From Paractinoplanes lichenicola (GTDB lineage Bacteria > Actinomycetota > Actinomycetes > Mycobacteriales > Micromonosporaceae), in NCBI RefSeq assembly GCF_016785085.1, contig NZ_JAENHO010000006.1, positions 1 to 64,000 on the forward strand: a DNA stretch of 64,000 nt. The letters are read 5' to 3'. Position numbers and translations under genes: made by a program. The notes under the pieces are model-generated. The model had not been told where the DNA came from, searched no databases, and saw only the letters and a program-made list of their open reading frames with translations. Each line of letters starts with the position of its first letter. Position 1 is the first letter of the stretch. Shown one piece after another: positions 46,200 through 50,639 of the stretch.

Positions 46200-46697
46200 T
46201 CAGCCTTCCCTGGCCTTCTGGATGGCGGCCCGGCGGGCCAGGCGATGCTCCCGCCGGATCAGAGCCTCGCGGAACCGGCGCTCGTCGTCCACGTTCTCGG
46301 GCAACACCGGCGGGACGTTTCTTGGGTGGCCGGCCACATCCACGGCCACGAACACCAGATATGCCGTCGCCACGGTCAGCGGCTCGGCGGCCACCACGTC
46401 CCAGCGCTCGGCGGCCAGCTTGACGCCCACCTCCATCGAGCTGGTGCCGGTCCAATTCACTTGCGCGTACGCGTGGACGAGATCGCCGACCCGCACCGGC
46501 TCCAGAAACACGATCTCGTCGATCGCGGCCGTGACCGCCGTGCCGCCGCTGTGCCGGGCCGCCGCCGCGCCGGCCACGTCATCGACGAACTTCATCAGCA
46601 CGCCGCCGTGCACAGTGCCGTACAGGTTGACGTCGACCGCGGTCATGATGCGGCTCAGCGTGACCCTGGAATGGCTGGTGGGGCGGCCCTCATTCAT
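46200..46697 (-). CDS. hotdog-fold acyl-CoA thioesterase
   Basis: This is a 165-residue single-hotdog thioesterase of the Acot/BFIT type. The signature is NLYGTVHGGVLMKFVDDVAG (about residues 27-46), with the catalytic Asp in the DD pair, followed by FLEPVRVGDLV. The ATG at 46697 is chosen because upstream residues are Arg-rich and not conserved. It probably hydrolyses fatty acyl-CoA or branched acyl-CoA, and is likely cotranscribed with the acetoacetyl-CoA synthetase gene. Confidence 0.9.
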   Translation of the reverse strand: MNEGRPTSHSRVTLSRIMTAVDVNLYGTVHGGVLMKFVDDVAGAAAARHSGGTAVTAAIDEIVFLEPVRVGDLVHAYAQVNWTGTSSMEVGVKLAAERWDVVAAEPLTVATAYLVFVAVDVAGHPRNVPPVLPENVDDERRFREALIRREHRLARRAAIQKAREG

Positions 46698-46781
46698 GCG
46701 GCGTACGTTACGGCGTCCTTCCGTGCGGTTGCCCCGCGACGGTACGGTTCGTCGGGCAGCCAGTGTTCGGGGAGTTAAAGC

Positions 46782-49700
46782 GTGCGCCACTTCAGGTCGA
46801 TCTTGTATGCCCTTGTGCTGGCACCGGCGGTGTGGATACTCGCGGGGGTCGGGTTCACTACCGAGCTGACCACCCGCGGGCGCGACGACTTCGCCGTCGA
46901 ATCGGCGACCGGGCTGCTGCTCCTGCTGCTGGCCGGGGCGGCGTACGGGATCCTGCTCTTCGCCCCGATCTCACCGGCCGGGCCGATCTTCGGCGGGCTG
47001 GTCTATCTGGGGCTCTCGCTGTGGGCGCTGGTGTCGCCAGGGGGCTACGCGGGGATCTGGCCGGCCGCGGTGGCCAAGGACGGCTTCGACCTGAGCCGGC
47101 CGGGGTACGGGCTGGCGGCGATGCTGGCTTTGCCGCTGCTGTGCACGGCCTTGAGCGCGCGGCGGTGGGATCGCTACGAGCCGCCGGTGCTGCCGCTGAT
47201 CGGGCAGGTGGGACGGGCCCGGGGGAAGGCCGCGGTGGCTACCCCGGATGCGGGCCTGGTTACTACCGCCGTGGTGCCTCCTTATGCGCCGACGCCTACT
47301 GATCCGGACCCGACCGCGGTGCTGCGGCTGCCCGCCTCAGCCCCCGCTTCCGCCTCGGGCGCCCCCTCTCCCTTGACCCCCACCCCTGCCTCCCACGCCT
47401 CCGCCTCCGCCTCCGATGATCCGCCGACGGTTGAGGCGGTTACGTCTGAGCCGGTGGATCCGGATGCGATCTCGGTGCTGGGTTCGGACGAGCCGACCGC
47501 GGCCGGTACGCCGACGGAGCCGCCGGCTGCTGAGTCGACCGAGGGCAGCTCCGTGTCGCCGATGGCCGCGCTGGCCGGGCCGCTGCGCGAGGTTGCGGCC
47601 GTGGCCCCGGAGGACGAGGCGACCATTGCTTGGCCGACGTTCCGGGACACCCGTCGCACCACGGTGATCGTCTCCGCCGACGAGGCGGCCACGGTAGCTG
47701 CTCTCTGCGACGGGCAAGCTTCGACCAGGCGGGGCACCGTGACGCCGCCGCCCGCAGAGCCCGAGGTGAAGACCCTCGACGCCGTTGCCGCGACCCCGGC
47801 GTCTGCGGCCCCCGCCTCCCCCACATCCCTCGATCACCCCGAGGACGACGAAGCCACGACCGTCCTCACGGCCATGAGCCCCCCGACCGCCGCCGCGACG
47901 CAGACCTCCGAGGACGACACGACTGCGGACGTCCCTGTCACCGGAACTCAGGACAGCGAGGCGGACGAAGCCACGACCGTGCTGACCCCCGTCGGCACCG
48001 CGACCGACGAGTCGTCCGCTGCTCAGGCCCAAGCCAGCGATGCCGACGAAGCCACGACCGTGTTGACGGCCCCCAGCACCGCGACCGACGACAAGCCCGC
48101 GACGGCCGACCTCACGAGCGAAACCGGCGAAGCAGCTGACAGGCTCGACTCGTCCGCCGAAGTTTCCGCTGGTGAAGCCCTAGATCGCGAGACCGACGAA
48201 GCTACGACCGTGCTGACGGTCCCCGGCACGGCGACCGACGACGGACCCGCCACGGCCGACCTCGCAAGCGAAACCGGCGAAACGACTGACAAGACCGCCG
48301 AAGTCTCCGCCGCTGACGCGCGAGATGGCGAGGCGGACGAGGCCACGACCGTGCTGACGGCTCCCAGCATCGCGTCGGACGAGCCCGCGACGGCCGACCT
48401 CACGAACGAAACCGGCGAAGCAACCGACAGGCTTGACTCGACCGCCGAAGTTTCCGCCGCTGACGCCCAGGACGACGAGACCGACGACGCCACAACCGAC
48501 TTGACGGCCCCCAGCACCGCGACTGACGACGAACCCGCGACGGCCGACCTCACGAGCGAGGCCGACGAAACCACTGACAAGCTCGACACATCCGCCGCTG
48601 ACGCTCGGGACGACGAGACCGTCTCGACATCCCCCGGCACCGCGGCCGAGGACGAACCTGCCACGGCTGATCTCACGGGCGAGGCCGGCGAAGATTCGAC
48701 TTTGCTGGCTGTTCTGGACGCGGGGGCAGAGGGCGAAGAGGAGACGTCCGCCCTCGGGAGCGGGGGCTTGGTCGCTGACGATGAGACGACGGCCGATGAC
48801 GGCGCCGAGTTCGCGGCCGTAGGGGCGTCGGCCGAGGGGCCGGAGGGCGCCGACGACAGTGCCGACGATGGCTCGGACGACGATGAATTCGCTTCGTTGT
48901 TCGTGACCGGGAAGGCCAAGGCGGCGCCGCACTCGCGGGCTGTGCCACCGGACTTCGAGGAGACTCGGGAGTTCGGGGCGCCTGATCCGGAGCGGACGCG
49001 GGCCATCAACATCGGGGAGCTGACCACCAAGCTTCAGGTGACGCCGGCCGCGGGTGAGGAGCCGGCGGGGAATGTCAACGAGCCGGTCAAGGCCCGCGCC
49101 TCGGTGACTGCTCCCGAGGGGCCGGGGGCCGAGGTCACGCAATCGCTGAACGCACCGGATCCGGAGCGGACGCAGACGATCAGGGTGGCCGACGAGGCCG
49201 AGACCACGCACGCCATCCACGTGATCACGTCGGAGGACGTGCACTCAGCGTCGGGGATCGACGATCTCGAGGTGACGCGGTCGCTCAGCGCGCCGGATCC
49301 GGATCGGACTCAGACGATCAAGGTGCTGGCCGAGAGCACGCGGTCGCTGGAGATGATCGGCGAGCACGACGGTGGGCGCCGGGGCGACGACGAGTTCGAT
49401 CCGGAACGTACGCAGGCCGTTCCGGTTGTTGCCCCGGGCGACGGGTTGCGGCTGATGCCTCCGGTGGCGCCGGCGGGGATGGCTCGGCATCCGGGGCTGG
49501 TGGAGGAGCGCGACGGCGGGAACGGGAATGCCGCGGTCGACGAGACTCAGGTGATCAAGTTCGATCCGGACCGTACGCAGATCATCCGGCCGGGGTCCGT
49601 CGAGCCGCCGGGCGAGCGCACCGAGTTCATCCGGCTGCCGGTCGCGGATCAGGCTGCCCAGCCAGTGTCGGCCCAGCCGGTGTCAACGCAACCGGTGTCC

Positions 49701-49961
49701 GCACAACCCATGTCGGCACAGCCGGTGTCCGCGCAACCGGTCTCTGCACAACCGCTGTCGGCGCAACCGGTGGCTGCCGGGCCTATGGCGGTTTCGATTG
49801 CCGAGGCTGAGCGGCCCAACTTCGCGGAGGATCCGACCAGCCGGATCGTTCCGCCGGGTGGGAACGGGCACGAGGCCGAGAAGCGTGAGATGACCGTGAT
49901 GAACATGGAGCGGCCGCCGGAGGACGAACCCGAGATCCCGCAGCAGCGCCGGCCGAGCTGA
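46782..49961 (+). CDS. large membrane protein with repeated Thr motifs
   Basis: This is a 1059-residue protein not recognised as a known family. Four hydrophobic segments lie at about residues 8-28, 42-62, 66-86 and 110-124; the rest is soluble, acidic and probably disordered. DEATTVLT occurs at residues 356, 395, 422, 472 and 519, with DDATTDLT at 568. DPERT or DPDRT followed by x-x-I/V occurs at 735, 793, 839, 873 and 928. AQPVS-type 5-residue repeats cover about 957-1005. Nearly all motif Thr residues have Ile, Leu or Val at +3, the pattern preferred by FHA domains. GGGGAG precedes the GTG. A scaffold role is inference. Confidence 0.85.
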   Translation: MRHFRSILYALVLAPAVWILAGVGFTTELTTRGRDDFAVESATGLLLLLLAGAAYGILLFAPISPAGPIFGGLVYLGLSLWALVSPGGYAGIWPAAVAKDGFDLSRPGYGLAAMLALPLLCTALSARRWDRYEPPVLPLIGQVGRARGKAAVATPDAGLVTTAVVPPYAPTPTDPDPTAVLRLPASAPASASGAPSPLTPTPASHASASASDDPPTVEAVTSEPVDPDAISVLGSDEPTAAGTPTEPPAAESTEGSSVSPMAALAGPLREVAAVAPEDEATIAWPTFRDTRRTTVIVSADEAATVAALCDGQASTRRGTVTPPPAEPEVKTLDAVAATPASAAPASPTSLDHPEDDEATTVLTAMSPPTAAATQTSEDDTTADVPVTGTQDSEADEATTVLTPVGTATDESSAAQAQASDADEATTVLTAPSTATDDKPATADLTSETGEAADRLDSSAEVSAGEALDRETDEATTVLTVPGTATDDGPATADLASETGETTDKTAEVSAADARDGEADEATTVLTAPSIASDEPATADLTNETGEATDRLDSTAEVSAADAQDDETDDATTDLTAPSTATDDEPATADLTSEADETTDKLDTSAADARDDETVSTSPGTAAEDEPATADLTGEAGEDSTLLAVLDAGAEGEEETSALGSGGLVADDETTADDGAEFAAVGASAEGPEGADDSADDGSDDDEFASLFVTGKAKAAPHSRAVPPDFEETREFGAPDPERTRAINIGELTTKLQVTPAAGEEPAGNVNEPVKARASVTAPEGPGAEVTQSLNAPDPERTQTIRVADEAETTHAIHVITSEDVHSASGIDDLEVTRSLSAPDPDRTQTIKVLAESTRSLEMIGEHDGGRRGDDEFDPERTQAVPVVAPGDGLRLMPPVAPAGMARHPGLVEERDGGNGNAAVDETQVIKFDPDRTQIIRPGSVEPPGERTEFIRLPVADQAAQPVSAQPVSTQPVSAQPMSAQPVSAQPVSAQPLSAQPVAAGPMAVSIAEAERPNFAEDPTSRIVPPGGNGHEAEKREMTVMNMERPPEDEPEIPQQRRPS
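47847..48506 (+). repeat. coding repeats with DEATTVLT core
   Basis: Six units begin at 47847, 47964, 48045, 48195, 48336 and 48483. Each has the DEATTVLT (last one DDATTDLT) core followed by Ala/Thr/Asp-rich spacer containing TATDD and PATADLT segments. Spacing varies from 81 to 150 bp, and always in frame, so this is a protein-level repeat with copy-number evolution. Confidence 0.88.
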
Positions 49962-50030: not shown

Positions 50031-50639
50031 ATGTCCACGGACGACGGGCCCCTGAGCAAGCGGCAACGGCAGATCCTTTCGATGATCCGCGAGTGGATCG
50101 AACAGCATGGTTATCCGCCGACCATTCGTGAGATCGGTGCCGCCGTCGGGCTCGATTCGCCGTCGTCGGTGGCTCATCAGCTCAAGGTGCTCGAGGATCG
50201 CGGGTTCATCCGGCGCGGGGCCCGGGGTTCGCGGGCGATCGACGTGCGCACCCCCGGCGAGCAGGCCAATGTGCCAGTTCCGGTGATCGGCACGATCGCG
50301 GCCGGCGCGCCGATCCTGGCCGACGAAAACGTGGACGAGGAGCTCAACCTGCCGTTGAGCCTGGTCGGCCACGGCACGCTGTTCGCGCTCAAGGTCAAGG
50401 GTGACTCGATGATCGAGGCCGCGATCTGCGACGGCGACACGGTGGTCGTGCGCCAGCAGCAGGTGGCCGACAATGGCGACATCGTGGCTGCCATGATCGA
50501 CGGCGAGGCCACGGTCAAGGTGCTGCGCATCAACGGCCGGCACATCGAGCTGGTCCCGCGCAACCCGGCTTACGACGTCATCCCGGGCGACGACGCCACG
50601 ATCCTGGGCCGAGTAGTGACAGTCCTGCGCCGCGTCTGA
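50031..50639 (+). CDS. lexA: SOS repressor LexA
   Basis: LexA represses DNA-damage genes and cleaves itself when bound to RecA filaments. The 202-residue protein has an N-terminal winged HTH (about residues 8-68; [20 protein letters not shown]) and a C-terminal S24 peptidase. The cleavage site is AAGAP (about residues 88-92), the catalytic Ser is in GDSMIEAAI (about 126) and the Lys in EATVKVL (about 163). All residues for self-cleavage are present. Confidence 0.97.

Follow-up and report, generated by a model that had tools for sequence, protein, structure and literature searches.

A membrane protein family of Actinoplanes-group bacteria with threonine-motif tails of the kind FHA domains bind

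Introduction

One open reading frame of the window (the whole stretch of 64 000 nucleotides analysed here) encodes four membrane segments and then a very long acidic tail in which short threonine motifs recur, and the question is what such a tail might serve. The initial annotation proposed that its threonines, once phosphorylated, dock proteins with FHA domains. The preference for Ile, Leu or Val at +3 from Thr that it relied on is stated in the literature: a review lists pTxx[I/L/V] among FHA motifs, with phosphothreonine strictly required (PMC8786283), and PMC6468809 restates the pT+3 rule, though Ile or Val at that place brought no gain for the FHA domain studied there. Phosphoserine, too, is reportedly bound by one mycobacterial FHA domain (PMC4238996), so that specificity for Thr is not decisive. 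On the side of the kinases, a preference of PknA and PknB for Thr and a Glu-x-x-pThr motif are reported for Mycobacterium tuberculosis (PMC5845002).

The reading frame and its parts

The open reading frame (46782..49961, + strand, GTG start, 1059 amino acids) joins a four-segment membrane domain to a disordered tail. The N-terminal domain, delimited by alignments and hydropathy (46782..47198, +), has about 139 residues and is conserved, with an MRH start, an SPxGP motif and RRW past the fourth segment. The 919-residue tail (47199..49958, +) is of low complexity and acidic (181 D/E against 52 K/R; C, W and Y once each), and holds 30 sites of the form [DE]-x(1,2)-T-x-x-[IVLMF], beginning with DPDPTAVLR (47301..47327, +).

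DEATTVLT occurs exactly five times, at residues 356 (47847..47870), 395 (47964..47987), 422 (48045..48068), 472 (48195..48218) and 519 (48336..48359); the six repeats of this type that had been annotated are reached if the variant DDATTDLT at residue 568 (48483..48506) is counted. All five annotated DP[ED]RTxx[IV] repeats are present, namely DPERTRAI at residue 735 (48984..49007), DPERTQTI at 793 (49158..49181), DPDRTQTI at 839 (49296..49319), DPERTQAV at 873 (49398..49421) and DPDRTQII at 928 (49563..49586), as are the two further C-terminal sites, DETQVI at 920 (49539..49556) and GERTEFI at 944 (49611..49631), all on the + strand. Near the end of the tail lies a QPVSAQPVS repeat (49655-49780) that has no Thr motif; other species have unrelated repeats there.

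This membrane protein of Actinoplanes-group soil bacteria has hitherto been unnamed. Nothing in Pfam or NCBIfam matched the reading frame over the curated cut-off (PF13885 and NF046080 appeared below threshold only) and no PDB chain matched at E 0.001, and on this ground we rejected the idea that the protein belongs to a family already described. No title on this protein was found among the literature matches listed for FHA docking and for Actinoplanes and Streptomyces phosphoproteomes, a search with most subscription journals outside its scope.

Excess of the threonine motif

We counted as a strict site any Thr with an acid (D/E) at -3 or -2 and Ile, Val, Leu, Met or Phe at +3. In the tail of the window's protein such a hydrophobic stands at +3 of 39 of the 112 Thr, against 18.0 in residue shuffles (z 5.8), and the 30 strict sites fall into 20 distinct contexts, so the excess is not merely copies of one unit. 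When 34 proteins are pooled, 36.7% of 2000 Thr have a hydrophobic at +3 over a background of 15.3%; at other offsets the figures are 26.8% (+2), 13.2% (+4) and 10.0% (-3).

Under the strict rule the 33 orthologous tails have 589 sites among 1990 Thr, against 93.8 in shuffles, an excess that is in part one of multiplied copies because residue shuffles do not preserve repeats. Ser shows none (35/1216, against 57.2). These counts exclude the protein G047, from the same order, which has no strict site and a +3 count of 1 against 0.3. A held-out set of 18 tails (34 loci less 16 repeats of proteins already used; one of them, L183, reaches past a contig end) gave the same picture, with 254 of 847 Thr against 36.5 and 19 of 487 Ser against 20.4, and so did other genera of the family (115/583 Thr against 9.1; 6/576 Ser against 8.6), counted over 39 of 40 tails with omission of G087, which likewise reaches past a contig end. 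What had been described as a trait of a single protein is in fact shared across a protein family, both in the 33 tails and in the 18 held out. Strict sites range from 3 to 45 per tail and distinct contexts from 5 to 29 in each of the 33.

Three other causes can be set aside. Chance or composition is ruled out by the shuffles, the offset profile and the Ser control, and the copying of a single unit by the number of distinct contexts. A general habit of Thr-rich segments in this genome is ruled out by its kinases, whose Thr-rich outer parts hold 7 sites where 6.2 are expected; this control comprises the 7 of 12 fetched kinase loci that gave a membrane segment by the rule used, and the juxtamembrane parts of the same kinases have 2 sites against 0.9 expected, a count too small to use.

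Acids precede Thr in 30% of cases at -3 and 38% at -2, over a background of 15%, which bears out the annotated likeness to substrates of actinobacterial kinases and agrees with the Glu-x-x-pThr motif (PMC5845002). Such sites might be for kinases only, a means of bulk phosphorylation and charge switching or a decoy substrate, with no FHA reader; the Thr preference of PknA and PknB and the reported Glu-x-x-pThr motif suit this, and the acids at -3 and -2 are enriched as strongly as the +3 residue. Mycobacterial kinases also favour a hydrophobic +3, as Prisic in 2010 reportedly found. We nevertheless judge this explanation unlikely, since a pure charge switch has no need of a +3 residue that is conserved between species (96/109, see below), and since the motifs in the available portion of PMC5845002 are without a +3 hydrophobic whereas the FHA rule states I/L/V there (PMC8786283, PMC6468809).

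Less probable still is a linear motif recognized independently of phosphate, for instance as a strand added onto the sheet edge of a partner. Val, Leu and Ile are enriched at +1 and +2 from Thr as well, as they would be in an extended strand, but no comparable +3 peak follows the same acids when the central residue is Ser (0.15), Ala (0.14), Val (0.15) or Pro (0.21) instead of Thr (0.56), and Val seldom takes the place of a motif Thr (3 of 238).

Conservation between species

With lengths of 144 to 1575 residues, the 33 orthologous tails can scarcely be aligned, and the motif is retained in units that differ by species: DEATTVL, DPDRTQ(A/T)I, DSERTQVVRLPV, DEPTTVV, DRTVA(M/I)P, GDKTTALPAQ and others. 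Conservation was measured in eight species pairs, picked by identity and length from a wider set of pairs that they supersede. Motif Thr is conserved at 104 of 121 positions in these, other Thr at 109 of 192 and Ser at 71 of 192, and the +3 hydrophobic at 96 of 109 against 318 of 434 for other hydrophobics, with the proviso that motif-rich tails may align motif to motif, a bias towards motif conservation. Two pairs, both with short tails, go against the trend for Thr (G016-G010, motif 3/5 and other Thr 9/10; G029-G007, 6/7 and 9/10). Counted in both directions, 211 of 238 motif Thr are retained and 215 of 396 other Thr; the 27 losses include 10 to Ala and 5 to Ser. The wider set, whose 326 pairs are not independent, had identity at 72.7% of 1793 motif Thr and 37.8% of 3915 other Thr.

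The tails have two of the features expected of FHA ligands: a +3 hydrophobic conserved above the spacer, and specificity for Thr. Thr and +3 are not as free to vary as the spacer; they persist, together with the preceding acids, where spacers, lengths and repeat units change, and the held-out set agrees. This upholds the evolutionary prediction that the initial annotation had offered as its check, and supports its interpretation in part. The two motif families whose convergence it had offered as the sign of selection make up only part of the 30 sites.

If repeats merely expanded and drifted in a low-complexity tail of no special kind, with the motif unselected, varying lengths and species-specific units such as these would be expected; this explanation, already disfavoured, is very improbable given that differing units obey the same rule across species, that over the pooled pairs motif Thr and +3 are better conserved than other Thr and hydrophobics, and that the held-out tails and those of other genera follow the rule too.

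The loci L048 and L049 (genomes G021 and G019) have DEPTRPHGLAV repeats, in which the acid and Thr are retained and the +3 hydrophobic is absent. This is possibly a lapse of the rule or a site for another reader.

Membrane topology

Hydropathy peaks near residues 7-25, 45-63, 66-84 and 108-126 number four, as annotated ahead of the acidic tail. An AlphaFold model of the N-terminal domain, whose low confidence (mean pLDDT 53) restricts its use to the helices, has long ones at 2-26, 37-60, 66-84 and 107-130. Residues 1-6 have a mean net charge of +1.5 (69 proteins) and the stretch past the fourth segment one of +2.4 (32 proteins), whereas the two putative outer loops average -1.3 and -1.2 (33 proteins). 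The positive charges at both ends would place both in the cytoplasm by the positive-inside rule, and the tail is accordingly predicted to be cytoplasmic, by charge only. An extracellular, O-mannosylated stalk, such as the Thr- and Pro-rich composition and the O-mannosylation of Thr/Pro/Ala-rich regions in actinobacteria might suggest, is hardly credible with these charges predicting a cytoplasmic C-terminus and with no motif excess in the Thr-rich outer parts of the seven kinases.

Reach of the family and gene neighbourhood

The gene sits in a genome of 10.7 Mb. By N-terminal domain its closest named relatives are in Actinoplanes, Paractinoplanes, Amorphoplanes, Winogradskya and similar genera; a search of 60 genomes, of which 36 belong to the window's genus (its own genome counted), recovered the domain in 34, all but one of them in that genus. 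Over the same taxonomic family 261 of 300 genomes have it, spread over 36 of 44 genera, and at class level 25 of 296 genomes do, 22 of which belong to one other family. In that other family 14 of 29 reading frames have a TTxPF tail site, mostly [KR]TT(T/L/M)PFRR, a count that leaves out L162, where the match precedes the domain. The strict rule is weakly enriched in the 29 class-level tails outside the family (10 against 4.7). Among their last ten residues, 16 of 40 proteins from other genera of the window's family have a T-x-x-hydrophobic site (DPDATRRL is an example), as do 5 of 33 in the window's genus.

Just upstream of the gene in the six loci of other genera that were inspected is a second, shorter protein that by eye has the same layout, with an MRH start, membrane segments and RW (L104:1884-2543, L117:1779-2525, L100:1626-2438 and L099:1889-2500, plus L119 and L120). 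Five of the six end in SPW..PP and have few Thr motifs; the two proteins may be a pair that splits the labour. The sampled proteins of the large genus g26, three without a strict site and two more with 2 and 3, resemble the second type by eye, and may have so few sites because they are of that type.

The immediate neighbours lie outside the proposed system: a divergent 4HBT thioesterase gene (46200..46790, -), the start of which overlaps that of the reading frame by 9 bases, and lexA downstream (50031..50639, +). In the genus the thioesterase gene adjoins in 25 of 33 loci and lexA in 7 of 33; of 40 loci from other genera, 16 include a thioesterase gene at some position. Four downstream genes that were scanned encode two MFS transporters, an acyl-CoA dehydrogenase and an aminotransferase, and the neighbourhood as covered (33 loci, 40 from other genera and these four genes) gave no clear functional hint. 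Elsewhere in the window is a tmRNA gene (275-648, -) with the tag ADNNRADFALAA.

Kinases and FHA proteins in the genome

The genome has 8 FHA places and 45 kinase places over cut-off. Among its proteins are one like FhaA, with an FHA domain that matches 3po8, 3poa and 3oun, one like GarA, which matches 2kfu and 8p5r, and one like CwlM, with EADVPTGSIDVRQL a few residues short of its C-terminus. None of the 8 FHA places is on the contig of the gene studied here. Another protein of this genome (L069, C33:525462-525656) has an FHA domain and two membrane segments with what seem to be Hsp70-like and TIR-like parts, the non-FHA calls being made by eye.

Discussion

The most lasting feature of the tail is an FHA-type Thr motif, so the protein probably serves as an anchor in the membrane at which signalling proteins assemble upon kinase activation. 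We consider it reasonably probable, judging from sequence, that the protein is a phospho-docking scaffold anchored in the membrane, with multivalent phosphothreonine sites written by kinases and read by FHA domains. The four-segment domain would tether the disordered tail at the cytoplasmic side, where Ser/Thr kinases of the PknA/PknB type would phosphorylate many of the Thr preceded by acids. Wherever Ile, Leu, Val, Met or Phe stands at +3, the phosphothreonine would then be open to binding by a pTxx(I/L/V)-class FHA domain, whether from FhaA, from GarA or from some other FHA protein. With its many weak sites each tail would draw FHA proteins to the membrane to an extent that follows kinase activity, and a phosphatase would free them. 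On this proposed account the acids before Thr would be owed to the kinases and the +3 residue and strict Thr to the FHA domains, and a site number that varies freely from 3 to 45 is what would be expected if valency counts and position does not. That the tail is phosphorylated, binds FHA proteins, gathers and releases them and so acts as a scaffold is inferred; the reader of the putative sites could be any FHA protein, or none.

More tentatively, the proteins may form a dedicated family of membrane hubs, with site number as a freely evolving dial for kinase-driven condensation of FHA proteins on the membrane. If so, the family would be a bacterial counterpart of the multivalent phospho-scaffolds of animal cells that pools the output of dozens of kinases; given 45 kinase and 8 FHA places, a tail on which as many as 45 similar docking sites are offered would serve directly as such a hub. 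Selection on a phospho-site rule would then be visible within disordered sequence that cannot be aligned, and bacterial FHA ligands could be recognized without phosphoproteomics by the statistics used here, which set Thr against Ser and +3 against the remaining offsets.

A close precedent is CwlM of M. tuberculosis, whose tail NDRPTGTFTFAELLA is bound by the FHA domain of FhaA once T382 is phosphorylated; there PknB writes and FhaA reads (PMC6180346). At the level of sequence the consensus of our tails matches this phospho-site, for pT382 (NDRPTGTF) likewise has an acid (D) at -3, then Thr, then a hydrophobic, Phe, at +3 (PMC6180346). CwlM, however, has one cluster of sites that ends an amidase-like protein, whereas here a membrane protein of four segments has dozens of them along its lengthy tail. 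The mycobacterial protein MurJ (MviN) also resembles the proposed scaffold, as a membrane protein with a phosphorylated cytoplasmic part that recruits FhaA (PMC6180346), but MurJ is a proposed lipid II flippase and the part in question its intracellular pseudokinase region, and our protein has no Pfam or NCBIfam match over cut-off and no PDB match.

GarA and OdhI carry an N-terminal ETTS switch, a Thr pair after Glu that is phosphorylated in vivo in S. erythraea (PMC12321487), and 46 of 51 Actinoplanes-group tails begin with TT[VILAM][IVLFM] near residues 146-190. The GarA site is N-terminal to that protein's own FHA domain, whereas the present proteins have many sites and no FHA domain. Rv1747 is a further near model, with a disordered phosphorylated linker, FHA domains and membrane clustering tuned by PknF and PstP; its FHA-linker module forms condensates tuned by phosphorylation and the full protein forms nanoclusters in the membrane (PMC9312465). 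There, reader and linker are within one ABC transporter; no Pfam match to an FHA domain or an ABC transporter was found in our reading frame, and in the proposed array the sites and their readers would be on separate proteins.
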